Below, in pieces: positions 1-5,939 of a stretch of DNA of 5,939 bases. Source of the DNA: Candidatus Latescibacterota bacterium (GTDB taxonomy: Bacteria; Latescibacterota; UBA2968; UBA8231). The position numbers and the translations under genes are program-made. Where the stretch lies: assembly GCA_022827165.1 (NCBI GenBank), contig JAJDTN010000298.1, forward strand, positions 1-5,939, written 5' to 3'. The notes below the pieces were generated by a model. It did no database searches, was not told the DNA's origin, and saw only the letters and a program-made list of their open reading frames with translations. Positions within the stretch are counted from its first letter, which is position 1. Each line of letters begins with the position of its first letter.

Positions 1-706
1 CGGCGGAGGCGGCCACCAGCTCGCCCGTGGAGTCGCCCGCGTAGACGGTCCCGCCGCCGACGCTGGCGGCGCTCAGCAGGCGGCCGGGCACCTCGACTTC
101 CCAGAGGAGGCGGCCGCCCTCCGGCGCCAGCGCCTCCAGACGGCCCGACTCCACGGCGGAATACACCCGGCCGCCGGCGACCGCCGGCGGGGCGCAGACC
201 TGGCCGGGCCGGCGCCAGACGGTCTCGCCCGAGGCCCGGTGCACGGCGTGGAGGCCGGCGCCGCCGCCGGTCATGGCCATCAGCAGCAGTTCCCCCCGCC
301 CGCCGGCGAGGGCGGCGGCGGCGCACAGGGGCCGGTCCAGGCGCCGGCGGCCGACCCGGGTGCCGGTGGCCAGATCGAAGACGACGACATCGGTCTCCCG
401 GGTCAGCTGCAGCACCAGCGGTCCGGCGATCAGGGGCCCGCCGAGGGGCGCTCCCCCCACGGCCTGCCGCCACACCAGGGAGAGGGGCGGCTCCGGGCCC
501 TCGGCCGCGGCGTGGAGCCCGTCGGGGGACCCGCCCTGCTGCACCCAGGCCGGACCCGCGCCGCCGTCCCAGGGCGCGAAGAGGTTCCCGGGGCCGCAGC
601 CGCAGAGGGCGGCCAGCAGCCACGGCCCCCCCCACCGGAGGAGCGGTCCGGGCCCGGGGGCCGGGTCAGTAATCCCAGCCGAAGAAGAAGTCCCAGCGCG
701 TGTCAC
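1..706 (-). CDS. PQQ/BamB-like beta-propeller probable lipoprotein (3' end outside window)
   Basis: The frame is open from a GTG at 704-706 to the left window edge, giving 235 visible residues. The N-terminal region holds a short hydrophobic stretch, WLLAALCGCG (residues 29-38). LCGC (34-37) fits a lipobox with Cys37 as the lipidated residue. From about residue 54 come strand-rich repeats typical of PQQ-type propellers, for example VVVFDLATG (107-115), LHAVHRASGETVW (152-164), a third around 172-204 and GGTVYAGDSTGELVA (218-232). No enzyme residues are visible, so a structural or scaffold role such as that of BamB is more likely than a quinoprotein dehydrogenase. The start is uncertain. The GTG lies inside the end of the upstream barrel gene (41 nt overlap) with only a weak GGTGGA upstream, and the resulting n-region is unusually long. 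A GTG at 633-635 would give a better signal peptide but is out of frame across a G8 run. The propeller assignment is firm; the function is inferred. Confidence 0.75.
   Translation of the reverse strand, partial: MTRAGTSSSAGITDPAPGPGPLLRWGGPWLLAALCGCGPGNLFAPWDGGAGPAWVQQGGSPDGLHAAAEGPEPPLSLVWRQAVGGAPLGGPLIAGPLVLQLTRETDVVVFDLATGTRVGRRRLDRPLCAAAALAGGRGELLLMAMTGGGAGLHAVHRASGETVWRRPGQVCAPPAVAGGRVYSAVESGRLEALAPEGGRLLWEVEVPGRLLSAASVGGGTVYAGDSTGELVAASA
626..633 (-). repeat. G8 homopolymer run near the lipoprotein start
   Basis: Eight consecutive C on the plus strand, which read as G8 on the coding strand, lie just upstream of the hydrophobic signal segment of the propeller gene. A GTG codon at 633-635 uses the first of these G bases. 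With eight G it reads out of frame with the propeller; with seven or ten it would be in frame and give a short signal peptide beginning MGGPWLLAALC. The run is a plausible site of a sequencing or assembly length error, or of slipped-strand length variation. Confidence 0.9.
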
Positions 707-3485
707 CGTCCACCGATCGGAAGTCGGTCCGCCGCGAGGCGTCGAGCCGAAAGACGAAGAAACCCCCCAGGCCGATGCGGGCGCCCAGGCCGAAGCTGCC
801 CTTCCAGTCCCCGAAGCGGTCGTTCCAGGCGTTGCCGGCGTCGGCGAAGAGGGCGCCCCTCAGAGCGGAGAAGGCGATGCTGCCGAAGGGGAAACCGAGG
901 ACGAAGCGATCGAGCAGCGGGTAGCGCAGCTCGTGGTTCAGCAACACGAGGTTGCTCCCCCACAGGGACCGGAACCCGTACCCCCGCAAGGTCCAGCTGC
1001 CGCCGAGGGACCAGAACTCGGGTACGTCGCCGCGGCTGTGGCGGCCCATGTAGCGCACCGCCAGGCAGGTACGCGGGCTGAGGCGCAGGTAGTGGCGGTA
1101 GTCGCCGTAAAAGGTGGTGTTGAAGGGGCGCGAGCTGCGTACGTCGATCGTCTGGCCGGCGCCGAGGCTGAAACGGGACCCCTCCATCGGGCCCGTGGGG
1201 ATCCACAGGCTGTTGTCGTGGGTGAAGGTCAGGTGGTTCGACATGAGCCACCCCGTGAGCCGGCGGCCCTCGAACTGCCGGTCGATGTCGGCGTGGCGGG
1301 CCGTGAACCGGAGATCGACGCGGTCGTGGCGGTTGAAGGGGTAGCTCAGCTCCGCCCATCCTCCGGTGCGCTTCTCGCGCACGGCGCGCCCGAAGCGGCC
1401 GCTGAGGCGGTCGTTCAGGTGGAACAGGCCCCAGTCGACGTTGAGCTGACGGGCCAGGTGCTGCCGGCCGAGGAGGAAGTTGAGCCCGTCGAGGATACCG
1501 CTCCGGGACCCGGAGATGTGGGACAGGACGAAGTAGTAACGCTCGTCGCCGAGGACATCGCTCAGCCCCACCTGCACGCCGCCGGAGGTGCCGAAGACGG
1601 GGTCCTGCGAGATCTGGCTCTGGGCCACGTCCAGGGAGAGCCGGCGCTTGTAGGTGCGGCGGCTGACCGCCGCCCGGTCCGGCAGTCCCGCCAGGTTCCA
1701 GGGGCCGGCCGCGCCCGCCGGCGGATAGGCGGTGGAGTCGATGCCCGCCGGATCCGGGCGCAGGCGATAGATCTGGAACCCCCCGGCCTCGAACCCGGTG
1801 AGCAGCAGCTCCTCCCCGTCCGGCATCCAGGCGGGATCGAAGAGGCCGGTGAGGGCGCTCGTCAGCCGCCTCCGGCCCACCGGCTCCACGACTCCGGCGG
1901 AGTCGCGCAGGGTCAGGGCGTGGAGGTCGAAGTACCCGCGGCGGTCGGAGCTGAAGGCGAGCCTCTCCCCGTCGGGGGACCAGGCCGGCTGCAGGTCCCG
2001 GTGCTCACCCGAGGTCAGCGGCCTCACGCGGCCGCTGCCGAGGTCGAGGGTGAAGAGATGCTGCCAGCCGCCGGTCTCCGGAGCCGAGGCGCGGTCGGAG
2101 CTGAAGGCCAGCAGGTCGAGCCGGGGGTGCCAGTCGGGATCGCTGTCGAGGCACTGATCGTCGGTCAGCTCGGTCAGGGCGCCGGTGGCGAGATCGAGCA
2201 GAAAGAGGTCGGTGGAGCCGCCGCGGCGGGCGCCGGAGAAGGCGATCCGGCCGCCCCCGGGAGACCAGGTCGGCGACGACAGGGCCACCAGGTCCTCGAA
2301 GGTGAACCGCTGCCGGCGCCGCCCCTCCTCCAGGTCCCACAGGATCAGGTGGTCGCGGCCGTTGCGCTTGGCCACGAAGGCCAGCACCCGGCCGTCGGGC
2401 GACACGTCGAGACTGGTGCGCAGGGGATGGAGGGACTCGTACTCGGGCTCGCGCTCGCCGGCCATCACCAGGCGGTGCCCGCCGCCGCCGACGCGGGACC
2501 GGGCGATGGTGGTATAGCCCTGGTCGTTGCGGAAGAACACGAAGGAGACGGAGTCGGCTGGCAGCTGGCGGCCCGAGGGCGGGGGGATGACCGCCGCCTT
2601 CAGGTTGTATCCGGTGCGCGTGAGCGGGTCCGCCAGGCGCCCCGGCGGCTCACCCTCGTCGATGTCGGGCAGGTAGTCCTTCTGCATGCGGTAGACCCAG
2701 GCCGCGTCGAGATCGGCCAGGCTCTCGCCGGTGGTGGCCTCGAAGACGCGGCCGAACTCCTCGCCGCGCCACCAGTTGTCCAGCAGCCGGGCGAAGACGT
2801 CCTCGCCGTAGCGCTCGGCCATGAGGTGGCAGATCGACTCGCCTTCCTTGTACATCTGGAAGGTGCCGTGGATCCGGTGCATCCGGGCGATGGGGGCCAG
2901 GCGGCCGCTGAACATGGCGTCGCGCAGGATCATGTGGGCATAGCTGTCCTGCGCGCCGGAGAGGTACTCGGCGAGCCCCTCGGAGAACCAGAGGGGGCCG
3001 AACCAGACATCGGCGGAGCCGCGGCCGCGCAGGACCGTGCGGATGCGGTCGAACATGAAGACGTGGACCAGCTCGTGGTGCAGGACCCGCTCGAAGTCGG
3101 CGTAGGAGCCGCTCAGGGGCAGGGCCACCCGCCCCTTGAGGAACTCCGTGAAGCCGGCCACCCCCTCCGGGAGCAGGCCCGGCATGATGTTGGTCTGCTC
3201 GAAGTAGACGTGGGAGGAGTAGACGATGAGCGGCACCCGGCGGCGCACGGTGTGGGCGAGGCGGCGCTCCAGGCGGCGGAAGCCCTCCTCCGCCATGCGC
3301 GCCGCGATCGACGCCAGCTCCTCCTCCTCCGGATAGAAGTAGACGTCGAAGTGCTCGGTCTCCATCCGCTGCCAGGCGAGCTCGTCGTGCTGGACCTTGT
3401 TCTTGCCGAAGCGGTAGGGCTGGGCCCCGGCCGTTGCCGCCGCCAGCAGGACCGACGCCAGCAGCGCCGTCAGAGCGCGGGACAA
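666..3485 (-). CDS. Exported gluzincin protease / TolB-like propeller / Omp85-like barrel fusion
   Basis: The product is 939 residues from a TTG start at 3483-3485, chosen because a perfect AGGAGG lies 7 nt upstream and a signal peptide follows at once (about residues 1-21, cleavage after TAGA). Residues about 40-270 look like a peptidase MA-like gluzincin domain: HELVH at 137-141 gives two zinc-binding histidines and the catalytic Glu138, and FSEGLAEYL (167-175) supplies the probable third ligand Glu169. Residues about 310-580 form a TolB/DPP-type propeller with motifs VSPDGRVLAF (361), WSPGGGRIAF (407), WHPRLDLLAF (452), WSPDGERLAF (502) and WMPDGEELLL (553). The region from about 612 to 939 resembles an Omp85/D15 barrel, with the LRGY motif at 833-836, FADAGNAW (880-887) and a terminal aromatic strand ending WDY. 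No POTRA domain is seen. It probably sits in the outer membrane with the other domains in the periplasm or outside; substrate unknown. The frame stays open upstream into the previous gene, but that part is not coding. Confidence 0.88.
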   Translation of the reverse strand: MSRALTALLASVLLAAATAGAQPYRFGKNKVQHDELAWQRMETEHFDVYFYPEEEELASIAARMAEEGFRRLERRLAHTVRRRVPLIVYSSHVYFEQTNIMPGLLPEGVAGFTEFLKGRVALPLSGSYADFERVLHHELVHVFMFDRIRTVLRGRGSADVWFGPLWFSEGLAEYLSGAQDSYAHMILRDAMFSGRLAPIARMHRIHGTFQMYKEGESICHLMAERYGEDVFARLLDNWWRGEEFGRVFEATTGESLADLDAAWVYRMQKDYLPDIDEGEPPGRLADPLTRTGYNLKAAVIPPPSGRQLPADSVSFVFFRNDQGYTTIARSRVGGGGHRLVMAGEREPEYESLHPLRTSLDVSPDGRVLAFVAKRNGRDHLILWDLEEGRRRQRFTFEDLVALSSPTWSPGGGRIAFSGARRGGSTDLFLLDLATGALTELTDDQCLDSDPDWHPRLDLLAFSSDRASAPETGGWQHLFTLDLGSGRVRPLTSGEHRDLQPAWSPDGERLAFSSDRRGYFDLHALTLRDSAGVVEPVGRRRLTSALTGLFDPAWMPDGEELLLTGFEAGGFQIYRLRPDPAGIDSTAYPPAGAAGPWNLAGLPDRAAVSRRTYKRRLSLDVAQSQISQDPVFGTSGGVQVGLSDVLGDERYYFVLSHISGSRSGILDGLNFLLGRQHLARQLNVDWGLFHLNDRLSGRFGRAVREKRTGGWAELSYPFNRHDRVDLRFTARHADIDRQFEGRRLTGWLMSNHLTFTHDNSLWIPTGPMEGSRFSLGAGQTIDVRSSRPFNTTFYGDYRHYLRLSPRTCLAVRYMGRHSRGDVPEFWSLGGSWTLRGYGFRSLWGSNLVLLNHELRYPLLDRFVLGFPFGSIAFSALRGALFADAGNAWNDRFGDWKGSFGLGARIGLGGFFVFRLDASRRTDFRSVDGDTRWDFFFGWDY

Positions 3486-3487
3486 GG

Positions 3488-4567
3488 TCAGCCCTCCTGC
3501 AGGTAGCCGCCGAAGGCGCCGCCCCGGGCGAGGGGGCGCCGCAGGCGGATGCGCCGGCCCGCCTCGACCCCGTGGTCGAAGGCTTCGCTGGCGGCCACCC
3601 CCGAGGACCTGCGGGTGACGACGCGCGGATTGTGGTACCGGTACCAGGCCCGGAGACGGGCGTCCCCCTTCCACACGAGCTCGGCGGAGGCGGCGCCCGC
3701 GGTGCGGCTGCGTTCCCTGCGGTCGAGCTGCTCGTGGAAGCCCTGCAGCAGGCCGGTCCAGTAGCCCATGCGCTCGCGGTTGCCCGTGAGGCTCCGCCGC
3801 CGGCGGTAGTCGTCCCACAGGGAGCGCAGCACCTGGGTGAGGTATGCGTGCACGTACTCGGCCATGTCCACGTTCGCCGGAGTGCCGTAGACCTCCAGCA
3901 CCGTGCCCTCCAGGTCGCGCCGGGCGGCGTAGCTGCGGGCCCACAGGACCTCGACGAAGAAGAAGTCGTTGAGGATCATGGCCAGCCACAGCTCCCAGGA
4001 GACGTGGCGGCCCTTCACCGGACCCAGGCGCCGGCGGGTGAAGGAGCGCCCGCCATCGGCCTCGACGAGCTCGACGTTGTACTTCAGCAGCAGCCGGCGG
4101 GCCTTCTCCATGGCCGCCCGCGCCTCGTTCTCGTTCGGCGACCCGGCCAGGGAGAGCAGCTTCTTCACGCGGGACACGACGCCCGCCTCGGCGCCCTCCG
4201 GACCCGCGCCGGAGGTCCGCGAAGTCGCCCGGGGCTCGCAGCGCAGGCGCCGGCAGGCCTCGCAGAAAGCCGGTCCGTGGGGCGGCTCGTCTCCGGCCCT
4301 CAGGACCTCGCCGGCGTACTGGTGAGCCATCTCGTGGCGCAGGGTCTCCATCACCTCGACCCAGGGGTCGTCGAGGATGTGTCGGCGGCTGATGGTGAGC
4401 GTGCGCAGCGCCGGGTCCCACGAGCCGAGTCGGGAGACGCCTTCGCCGAGGCGGATCTGGGGGCGGCGCAGGGCCTGGCGCAGGTACTCGTGGTCGTAGT
4501 GCTCCCACCATCGGTAGAGGGCGCGGACCCAGGCGCCGTTCAAGTCCCGGGGAGCGGAGACGGACAT
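3488..4567 (-). CDS. SprT-like zinc metalloprotease domain fused to DUF2786
   Basis: A 359-residue protein with no signal peptide or membrane segment, so probably cytoplasmic. Residues about 10-110 resemble a SprT-like domain: HEMAH at 78-82 gives zinc ligands His78 and His82 with catalytic Glu79, and HGPAFCEACRRL (97-108) gives the expected third ligand His97. The preceding WDPALRTLTISRRHIL (50-65) is typical of the family. The C-terminal zinc ribbon found in many SprT proteins is not seen, though Cys102, Cys105 and Cys110 sit close together. Residues about 132-170 match DUF2786 (VKKLLSLAGSPNENEARAAM, then KARRLLLKYNV). The rest (about 185-345), including YGTPANVDMAEYVHAYL, looks like the domain that usually follows DUF2786. 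SprT-family enzymes such as eukaryotic Spartan act on DNA-protein crosslinks, but nothing here shows that substrate. The ATG at 4565-4567 is the only start after an in-frame stop at 4592-4594 and has no Shine-Dalgarno sequence. It ends 2 nt before the next start. Confidence 0.87.
   Translation of the reverse strand: MSVSAPRDLNGAWVRALYRWWEHYDHEYLRQALRRPQIRLGEGVSRLGSWDPALRTLTISRRHILDDPWVEVMETLRHEMAHQYAGEVLRAGDEPPHGPAFCEACRRLRCEPRATSRTSGAGPEGAEAGVVSRVKKLLSLAGSPNENEARAAMEKARRLLLKYNVELVEADGGRSFTRRRLGPVKGRHVSWELWLAMILNDFFFVEVLWARSYAARRDLEGTVLEVYGTPANVDMAEYVHAYLTQVLRSLWDDYRRRRSLTGNRERMGYWTGLLQGFHEQLDRRERSRTAGAASAELVWKGDARLRAWYRYHNPRVVTRRSSGVAASEAFDHGVEAGRRIRLRRPLARGGAFGGYLQEG
3493..3498 (-). promoter_or_regulatory. 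Ribosome binding site that sets the TTG start of the barrel-fusion gene
   Basis: AGGAGG on the minus strand lies in the last codons of the SprT-like gene, 7 nt before the TTG at 3483-3485. It is the strongest Shine-Dalgarno match at any gene start in this window. It supports a TTG start and suggests that translation of the two genes is coupled, as the upstream stop codon lies between the site and the start. Confidence 0.85.
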
Positions 4568-4629: not shown

Positions 4630-5499
4630 TCATCGCAGGCTCTCGACGAAAGCCGGGGCCAGGCGGCCGCTGGCCACCTCTTCCACCGCTCCGCGCATGG
4701 TCAGGCCGAAGCCCGGGTCCACGTCGATGTGGAGGGTGCCGCCCTCGGCCTTCACCGCCACCGGCGCCTTCACCAGACCCAGGCGGACCGCGGCGGCGGC
4801 GGCGGCGCAGGAGGAGGAGCCCGAGGCCAGGGTCTCGCCGGCGCCGCGTTCCCAGATGAGGATGTGGAGCGAGCGGGGGCCGATGGGGATGGCCAGTTGA
4901 ACGTTGGTCCGGCGCGGGAAGATCTCGTGGTTCTCGAGGGCGGGTCCCAGGGTGAGCAGCTCCTCCCGCGTCCACGGCTGACCGCGGCCGCGGAAGAGGA
5001 CGCAGTGGGGGTTGCCGACGCTGACCCCCGTGAAGCGCAGCTCCCGGCCGGCGGCGGTCACGGGCTGCTCGATGAGCTCCTCCACGCGCAGGCTGCAGGG
5101 CAGGGCCGAGGGACGGAAGGTGGCGCCCCCCATCTCCACCGTGGCGGCGCTGGCGTACCCGGAGGCGTCCAAGTGCAGCTCGATGGCCACCCGCCCGCCC
5201 CGGGTCTCCACCGTGAAGCGGCGGCGGCGGGTGCGGCGCGTGGCGTGGAGGTAACGGGCGAAGATGCGCAGGCCGTTGCCCGACTTCTCGGCCTCCGAGC
5301 CGTCGGGATTGTAGATGCGCACGCCGAAGTCGGCTGTCCGCGACGGCGCCAGGGCGAGGATGCCGTCGCTGCCGACGCCCCGGTGGCGGTCGCAGATCGC
5401 CCGGATCCGCCGCGGCGTGAGGGAGATGTCGAGCTCGGCCGGGTCCAGGGCGATGTAGTCGTTGCCCAGGCCGTGGCCCTTGAAGAACCCGTTCCTCAT
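4630..5499 (-). CDS. dapF: Diaminopimelate epimerase (DapF) family isomerase with both catalytic Cys replaced by Ser
   Basis: DapF interconverts LL- and meso-diaminopimelate in lysine and peptidoglycan synthesis without PLP, using two cysteines as acid and base. This 289-residue protein is near the usual family length and keeps the fold signatures: HGLGNDY (9-15, Asn13), HRGVGSDGIL (39-48), NPDGSEAE (64-71), GNPHC (162-166, His165) and WERGAGET (216-223, Glu218). The two catalytic positions differ. KSGNG has Ser73 where KCGNG is usual, and ETLASGSSSCA has Ser226 where ETxACGTGACA is usual. Both are TCG codons (5281-5283 and 4822-4824). The second Cys of the later motif remains as Cys231. The ATG at 5497-5499 places the motif two residues further in than in typical DapF; AGAGG directly touches it, so the binding site is weak. 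It follows the membrane-protein gene by 22 nt. Family membership is certain; activity on diaminopimelate is not. It could be a serine-based DapF variant or an isomerase for another amino acid. Confidence 0.92.
   Translation of the reverse strand: MRNGFFKGHGLGNDYIALDPAELDISLTPRRIRAICDRHRGVGSDGILALAPSRTADFGVRIYNPDGSEAEKSGNGLRIFARYLHATRRTRRRRFTVETRGGRVAIELHLDASGYASAATVEMGGATFRPSALPCSLRVEELIEQPVTAAGRELRFTGVSVGNPHCVLFRGRGQPWTREELLTLGPALENHEIFPRRTNVQLAIPIGPRSLHILIWERGAGETLASGSSSCAAAAAAVRLGLVKAPVAVKAEGGTLHIDVDPGFGLTMRGAVEEVASGRLAPAFVESLR
4791..4807 (-). repeat. Short GCC/CGG triplet run encoding alanines in dapF
   Basis: Five consecutive CGG units plus two bases on the plus strand encode most of a six-alanine run (residues 232-237) directly after the second active-site motif of the DapF homologue. 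Alanine-rich sequence is normal at this helix in the family, so the run probably reflects composition and codon choice. Confidence 0.8.
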
Positions 5500-5521: not shown

Positions 5522-5939
5522 TCAGAAGCGCAGTCTCAACTCGGCCAGCCGAAGGGGGCGGTCCCTGGCCGCGGCCTCGTCGAGGAGCAGCTCCGGCTCC
5601 CGCTCCTGGTGGACGGCGTTGGCCGCCCGCACCTGGTCCCGCAGGTGGAGCAGGGAGGCGACCTTGGTCCAGGCCAGCAGGGGGATCCAGCCCGCCGCTC
5701 CGCTGCGCCCGGTGGCCCACGCCGTACCTCCGGCGATGGCCGTGACCCCGACCATGGCGTATCCCTGGCCGTACTCGCCGGCGTAGAAGTAGCCGAACCC
5801 CGGCAGCACGGCCTCGATGGCGACGGCGAGGCCCGTCCACTTCGGAGGCCGGTACGGCGCCATCTGCCGAGGGATCCGGTGGACGCCGATCTCGCGGGCC
5901 GAGCGGATGTGGGCCAGCGGATAGGCGGCGGGCCGTAGC
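5522..5939 (-). CDS. Small membrane protein, C-terminal part (start probably outside window)
   Basis: I do not recognise a named family. The frame is open from the right window edge to a TGA at 5522-5524, giving 138 visible residues. An ATG at 5861-5863 would give 113 residues, but it has no ribosome binding site, and the 25 codons before it show the same strong G/C third-position bias as the rest, so the gene probably begins outside the window. Two hydrophobic stretches are visible, about residues 35-53 and 60-76 of the visible part, with a weaker one around 81-97. The first holds PGFGYFYAGEYGQG (46-59), which resembles the PG-x-G-x-x-Y turn of TM2-like or DUF5683-like small membrane proteins. 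The tail (about 98-138) is charged and probably soluble. It is the first visible gene of the probable operon, 22 nt before dapF. Confidence 0.7.
   Translation of the reverse strand, partial: LRPAAYPLAHIRSAREIGVHRIPRQMAPYRPPKWTGLAVAIEAVLPGFGYFYAGEYGQGYAMVGVTAIAGGTAWATGRSGAAGWIPLLAWTKVASLLHLRDQVRAANAVHQEREPELLLDEAAARDRPLRLAELRLRF

Follow-up and report, generated by a model that had tools for sequence, protein, structure and literature searches.

The window, a stretch of 5,939 nucleotides from a Candidatus Latescibacterota bacterium, encodes a homologue of diaminopimelate epimerase (DapF) in which both catalytic cysteines are replaced by serine. The protein belongs to a Ser/Ser subfamily of DapF that is best read as old and widespread. 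The substitution is fixed on one branch of the family and is carried by the sole DapF copy in most genomes read, and the DAP pathway, the DAP-contacting residues and the DapF fold are retained. We propose, with a probability of roughly 0.6, that the protein is a working LL-DAP/meso-DAP epimerase and the cell's own, which would use the Ser/Ser pair and would probably be tuned by Lys72.

Identification of a DapF with two catalytic-site serines

The dapF gene lies on the minus strand at 4630..5499 and encodes a 289-aa open reading frame. The product scores 215.6 bits against NCBIfam TIGR00652 (cut-off 114.65) and 164.3 bits against Pfam PF01678 (cut-off 34.7). Alignment to the solved DapFs 8qzy and 4ik0, gap-free near both sites, places Ser73 (codon TCG, 5281..5283, minus strand) on the Cys of CGNG and Ser226 (codon TCG, 4822..4824, minus strand) on the Cys of ACG[TS]G, confirming the original prediction of serine at both catalytic cysteine positions. 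The interval 4822-5283 singled out in that prediction spans exactly codon 226 to codon 73, and both codons are, as it claimed, two base changes from either Cys codon. The window protein thus lacks the catalytic Cys pair of DapF; the PROSITE DapF signature, as quoted in the consulted part of PMC8225329, includes Cys. In the structural model the protein adopts the two-domain DapF fold, with the reactive residues predicted at the N-terminal ends of the central helices, Ser73 preceding helix 74-86 and Ser226 preceding helix 227-239. DapF entries outranked the proline racemase/hydroxyproline dehydratase group for the window protein in both Foldseek and Z ranking, and the families of that group gave no score for the window proteins in NCBIfam and Pfam profile searches. 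Membership in the proline racemase/hydroxyproline dehydratase group was rejected, as sequence and fold are closer to DapF.

Directly downstream of dapF, a minus-strand gene at 3488-4567 encodes a protein that combines an SprT-like metallopeptidase domain with DUF2786 and DUF7168. The other neighbour of dapF (5522-5863) is a small protein that matched no family. A single minus-strand reading frame at 666-3800 of the window combines a TolB-like propeller with an Omp85-like C-terminal part. By gene order, no DAP gene was recognised next to the Ser/Ser dapF of either the window or Nitrospira moscoviensis.

Sequencing error, pseudogene formation or decay would be suggested by nothing beyond the odd sites themselves. 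Against them, a relative of the window, L001 (a MAG named Gemmatimonadaceae bacterium COS4_bin_9), aligns at 93.5% over 5.9 kb with a dapF dN/dS of about 0.10, and comparison of the window dapF with five relatives gave dN/dS values of 0.07-0.29, with dS high or near-saturated in some. Among 127 rows, duplicates included, Ser73 is encoded by TCN in 113 and by AGC in 14, and N. moscoviensis has AGC in an otherwise TCN group among the rows read. No single base change leads from TCN to AGC without leaving Ser, yet Ser stands on both sides of such a switch, indicating that Ser73 was kept across the change of codon class. Upon comparison with hundreds of relatives, single-chromosome genomes included, the pair is fixed, purifying selection acts on the gene and no stops occur inside the DapF matches. 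Error and decay are refuted by these observations and we give them practically no weight, in agreement with the original arguments against both.

Extent and phylogeny of the Ser/Ser subfamily

Three protein searches were performed, in each of which about 8000 candidates were scored and the best 120 taken. With the window protein as query, 119 of these best 120 relatives were Ser/Ser; the remaining one, P0011, is broken at the site, with the residues around position 73 absent, and was counted as AS since the deletion leaves Ala at 73. The suggestion that the protein represents a subfamily instead of a singleton is therefore upheld. When two distant members (48% and 44% identical to the window protein) served as queries, Ser/Ser was found in 120/120 and 119/119 newly listed matches, again among the best 120 of about 8000 each. 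Among the matches listed, Ser/Ser proteins are named after Nitrospirota, Leptospirillum, Leptospirales, WOR-3 and Deltaproteobacteria/Thermodesulfobacteriota, and further after Bacteroidetes, Armatimonadota, Binatia and NC10. Many of them are annotated as diaminopimelate epimerase by their sources.

An unrooted tree was built from 55 dereplicated rows of these searches with columns 72, 73 and 226 masked. All 19 Ser/Ser rows fall on one side of a single branch (support 100/99, present in 100% of 200 bootstrap trees), as a Ser/Ser clade, which the original prediction had raised, would require. When the tree is rooted, by midpoint only, the Ser/Ser proteins of genomes with both DapF types (P0123) branch first among the Ser/Ser rows. 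Four Nitrospirota loci (L129, L131, L133 and L142) encode Ser/Cys DapFs, with Ser at 73 only and Cys kept at 226. They read EFSGNG or ELSGNG, position 72 is Phe or Leu, position 163 is Val, and each of the four genomes has one DapF match; the two Ser/Cys rows in the tree are placed apart from the Ser/Ser rows, among divergent Cys/Cys rows. One contig with a full-length Ser/Ser gene also carries a C-terminal DapF-like fragment of 110 aa (L074:6546-6875), in which Leu stands at the position equivalent to 226.

Residues changed and residues kept

The residue counts derive from an alignment of 549 rows in all, 488 of them Ser/Ser and 56 Cys/Cys, with duplicates of the same genes included and the 110-aa fragment of L074 left out by length. 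Compared with Cys/Cys DapF (TIGR00652; H. influenzae 1gqz, Anabaena 9mro, E. coli 4ijz), the Ser/Ser group differs in both catalytic Cys residues and also in Met72 to Lys, Cys79 to Ile and Gly229 to Ser. Lys72 (codon 5284..5286, minus strand) is present in 488/488 Ser/Ser rows, whereas Met is found in 54/56 Cys/Cys rows and Phe or Leu in the four Ser/Cys rows. A later set of 47 Ser/Ser and 41 other loci, standing outside the 488-row counts, gave Lys72 in 47/47 Ser/Ser and Met in 40/40 Cys/Cys loci. Position 79 is Ile in 488/488 Ser/Ser rows and Cys in 56/56 Cys/Cys rows. The residues Ser228 and Ser229 (codons 4813..4818, minus strand) replace the Thr-Gly of 56/56 Cys/Cys rows; across the Ser/Ser rows position 228 is Ser in 438 and Thr in 50, and Ser229 is found in 481/488.

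The residues that contact DAP, all encoded on the minus strand, are fixed or nearly so. Asn13 (codon 5461..5463), the contact of the proximal amine, is kept in 486/488 Ser/Ser rows. Asn64 (5308..5310, distal end), Asn163 (5011..5013, distal carboxylate), Asn199 (4903..4905, distal carboxylate) and Glu217-Arg218 (4846..4851, distal amine and carboxylate) are each kept in 488/488, as are Gly74, Asn75 and Gly227. By alignment to 9mro, the Ser/Ser group has the residues given as DAP-binding in Anabaena DapF, namely N13, N66, N164, N197, E215 and R216 (PMC12039745, consulted in part). Of the signature residues originally listed, Asn13, Asn64 and His165 are in place as claimed, and the one called Glu218 is Glu217, 218 being the neighbouring Arg. 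Since residues 72, 79, 228 and 229 have changed and the DAP contacts have not, the surroundings of the bases appear to have been remodelled as a set with the grip on the substrate unchanged. The proposal of a changed substrate is thus disfavoured: the contacts to either end of DAP are conserved, and a DAP epimerase is what the surrounding pathway requires. Altered chemistry is plausible.

The fixation of Lys72 raises the alternative that the protein is a DAP epimerase in which Lys72, or a Lys72-Ser73 dyad, serves as the base on one face, with Ser226 or a bound water opposite. The partition of Lys, Met and Phe/Leu at this position, in the main alignment as well as in the later loci, is consistent with such a role. 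According to the consulted part of the Anabaena DapF study, the loop with the residue-72 place curves round the substrate and no basic residue lies within 4 Å of the catalytic sulphurs (PMC12039745), and Lys/Ser is a base pair reported for the PLP-dependent serine racemase (PMC8142540, in part). However, the same loop makes no direct substrate bonds in known structures (PMC12039745, in part), and Lys72 may merely pair with Glu71 or another neighbour. We regard a Lys72 base as unlikely, and favour the Ser73 and Ser226 hydroxyls themselves as the probable bases.

A second alternative retains the thiol mechanism with a relocated cysteine, Cys166, Cys231 or Cys36. No Ser/Ser row is free of Cys, and Cys36 (codon 5392..5394, minus strand) is the sole cysteine fixed in them (488/488). 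However, Cys36 is also found in 49/56 Cys/Cys rows and is therefore an old family residue; in the model it would be the last residue of helix 29-36, away from the start of the central helix. Cys166 is Phe or Ala in 70/488 Ser/Ser rows and Cys231 is Ser or Gly in 60/488. The original prediction had named these two as cysteines that might take the catalytic places; both vary across the group and were rejected. In addition, a two-base thiol mechanism requires two Cys, and six rows hold only one. A relocated cysteine is therefore very improbable, and the Ser/Ser pair is kept as the preferred reading.

Distribution of the two DapF types

A single DapF match was found in 8/8 genomes first searched, including the single-chromosome genomes of N. 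moscoviensis, N. defluvii and Nitrospira UBC2, and the sole match in N. moscoviensis and N. defluvii is of the Ser/Ser type. Across Nitrospirota, a DapF match was found in 143 of 148 genomes. The Ser73 signature is present in 53/148, in a search that read residues 71-79 only and would miss proteins departing from EKSGNG(L/I)RI, and residue 226 is Ser in 52/52 readable cases. Two matches are fragments at contig ends, G026 without position 226 and G104 without position 73. No other DapF type is found in 50 of the 53 signature genomes, 49 of which have a single match (G026 counted) and one of which, G036, has two Ser/Ser copies. These two copies are different proteins (L119 and L120). The Ser/Ser and Cys/Cys types coexist in G014, G024 and G033 (L121-L126), where lysA (split into pieces in G024), dapB and a match to an aminotransferase are found on the contig of the Cys/Cys copy. 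Of the genomes with a DapF match, 90 lack the signature; they comprise 85 Cys/Cys, 4 Ser/Cys and 1 fragment with Cys226.

Taken over the 148 Nitrospirota genomes, 3 have both, 50 Ser/Ser only, 90 the other type only and 5 neither; as these genomes are related, the Fisher p of 8e-30 is descriptive and no true probability. In a sample of the phylum around L001, which includes genomes of Candidatus Latescibacterota (L003) and Latescibacteria (L060) loci, 48/50 genomes have one DapF match each, 40 of them Ser/Ser and 8 Cys/Cys. A hidden second DapF in most Ser/Ser genomes was rejected, since most have no second TIGR00652 match. Of the second Cys/Cys dapF considered in the original prediction there is thus no sign in the eight genomes first searched, and it exists in the three Nitrospirota genomes with both types.

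These three genomes bear on the alternative that the protein is no longer an epimerase and now binds DAP or carries out some other activity, meso-DAP being made by an enzyme not yet recognised. As a Cys/Cys copy is kept there, the Ser/Ser protein could serve another job in those cells. The near-mutual exclusion of the two types across Nitrospirota (3 both against 50 and 90) argues against this, as do the missing second match in most Ser/Ser genomes and the conserved DAP contacts.

DAP pathway context

The pathway was read in a panel of 30 hand-picked genomes (23 Ser/Ser only, 3 both, 4 Cys/Cys only). DapB and MurE score over cut-off in 23/23 Ser/Ser-only genomes. The MurE of these genomes carries the motif SDNPR, which we take to be the mark of a DAP-adding MurE. 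LysA is over cut-off in 19/23 and below it in the window relatives G001, G005, G006 and G008 (255-288 bits versus 297.9), so that the last lysine step there may use a divergent LysA. The LL-DAP aminotransferase exceeds one of two family cut-offs in 20/23 genomes, 16 by TIGR03540 and 4 by TIGR03542, the latter being the same four window relatives; the TIGR03540 scores of G027 and G018 lie just under the cut-off and that of G060 is lower. Among 14 genomes searched with TIGR03542, 9/10 Ser/Ser genomes of the window relative's phylum are over cut-off, G171 and three Cys/Cys genomes have no match, and N. moscoviensis is below cut-off. Both N. moscoviensis and N. defluvii have matches to DapB, MurE, LysA and LL-DAP aminotransferase. 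The former is presumably an autotroph that grows in mineral medium, which would oblige it to make its own lysine.

A DAP dehydrogenase over cut-off was found in 0/30 panel genomes, and some match at E up to 0.001 in 14/30. Three Nitrospira, N. defluvii included, have a distant relative of this enzyme at 110-117 bits versus the cut-off of 180.6, and the other matches reach at most 24 bits. Scored at its own locus, the N. defluvii protein (L188:1462-2436) reaches 119.7 bits, likewise below 180.6. A general bypass through DAP dehydrogenase was rejected on the 0/30 count, and the relative may yet have a role in the three Nitrospira. Of the two bypass routes originally suggested, the aminotransferase is thus present and the dehydrogenase is not found over cut-off; as the aminotransferase makes LL-DAP, an epimerase is still needed. 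In the window's relatives we therefore find a DAP pathway and no other epimerase or dehydrogenase of a known family, with exceptions that we count against the reading: the low aminotransferase score of G060, the lack of a TIGR03542 match in G171, the dehydrogenase relatives of the three Nitrospira and the Cys/Cys copies kept in the three Nitrospirota genomes with both types. In the Ser/Ser-only panel genomes, the Ser/Ser protein is the only DapF found that links the LL-DAP made to the meso-DAP used.

The gene order is lysA-dapF-dapA in a Cys/Cys relative and lysA-dapA-dapB, without dapF, in N. defluvii. By coordinates, dapF adjoins lysA in 4/4 Cys/Cys-only panel genomes, and in seven Ser/Ser-only genomes (L197, L198, L199, L201, L203, L204 and L207) the lysA region, read over 18-20 kb, contains no DapF-like sequence, a pattern expected if a Ser/Ser gene elsewhere replaced the operon copy.

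Proposed mechanism and comparison with known enzymes

In the standard DapF mechanism, a thiolate takes the alpha proton and a thiol gives one. In the Ser/Ser enzyme, Ser73 and Ser226 at the two helix ends would flank the alpha carbon of the substrate and assume the acid and base roles. Upon closure of the two domains around DAP, water would be driven out, and the helix dipoles together with the amides at Gly74 and Ser229 might stabilize the developing alkoxide. According to the consulted part of PMC12039745, the second catalytic sulphur of Anabaena DapF is bonded by the backbone amide of the residue equivalent to Ser229. Lys72 and the hydroxyls of Ser228 and Ser229 may tune the alkoxide and are candidates for making deprotonation of the hydroxyl cheaper.

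The designed Cys-to-Ser mutants point the other way. In the parts consulted, such mutants of the Dab racemase PddB are reported to have less than 0.1% activity, with a like effect cited for M. tuberculosis DapF (PMC8225329), and those of the histidine racemase HisR to have greatly reduced activity (PMC11602996). As mutants of ordinary relatives are nearly dead, a natural Ser/Ser epimerase is surprising, and these mutants favour the non-epimerase alternative. The natural group has fixed extra changes that the mutants do not have, which makes the proposed mechanism testable. The H. influenzae DapF structures C73S and C217S (2q9h, 2q9j) each have Ser in place of one of the two catalytic cysteines, 73 and 217 presumably being positions 73 and 226 of the window protein. 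They are laboratory single mutants, whereas the natural group has both serines along with fixed neighbouring changes.

A natural exchange of Cys for a hydroxyl residue is described, in the consulted part of PMC8142540, for the Cys/Thr Asp/Glu racemases Ecl-DER and MMP0739 and for human trans-3-hydroxyproline dehydratase. These enzymes replace one Cys only, and their reaction is one-way (shown or predicted) or a dehydration (PMC8142540, in part), so the single Cys-to-Thr change in related cofactor-independent enzymes also speaks for a protein that is no longer an epimerase. On the other side stand the distribution and residue evidence above and the meso-DAP product required by LysA and MurE. 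Loss of epimerase function is accordingly quite improbable in our view, and we think it very probable that the Ser/Ser DapF is an epimerase by one route or another.

The O-ureido-serine racemase DcsC (7vdy) and the histidine racemase CntK have the DapF-like fold in common by structure comparison. Both, together with HisR and PddB, are reported or presumed to be Cys/Cys enzymes with other substrates. The DapF-like fold is likewise shared by HisR (PMC11602996) and PddB (PMC8225329), as described in the consulted parts of these papers. A review of racemase and epimerase bases names Cys/Cys, Cys/Thr, Lys/Lys and other pairs, and no Ser/Ser pair in its consulted part; the nearest natural precedents found there have one Cys changed to Thr, not two Cys to Ser (PMC8142540). 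At the level of titles and abstract openings, with subscription papers outside the scope, we found no report of a natural Ser/Ser DapF, and the consulted part of PMC6254735 holds nothing on Ser at the two catalytic sites.

DapF is a standard example of a two-base mechanism with a thiol and a thiolate, which is accounted for by the special desolvation and pKa of cysteine. We lean slightly towards the broader view that the subfamily represents an ancient cofactor-independent epimerase, in which either two serines or a Lys-Ser dyad opposite a cluster of Ser residues would act on the alpha proton, and that it supplies all meso-DAP in whole lineages. If the Ser/Ser DapF does so in nitrite oxidisers and other phyla, the cysteine-based explanation would be incomplete, and a natural comparison pair within one fold would be at hand for the cofactor-free removal of an unactivated alpha proton. 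Such a non-thiol solution would be expected to resist oxidation and thiol-directed inhibitors. A Ser/Ser subfamily also matters for the annotation of proteins named DapF and for cysteine-alkylating inhibitors of DapF. Bench confirmation would mean that the accepted chemistry of DapF is not nature's only way to make an essential building block of the cell wall and of lysine.
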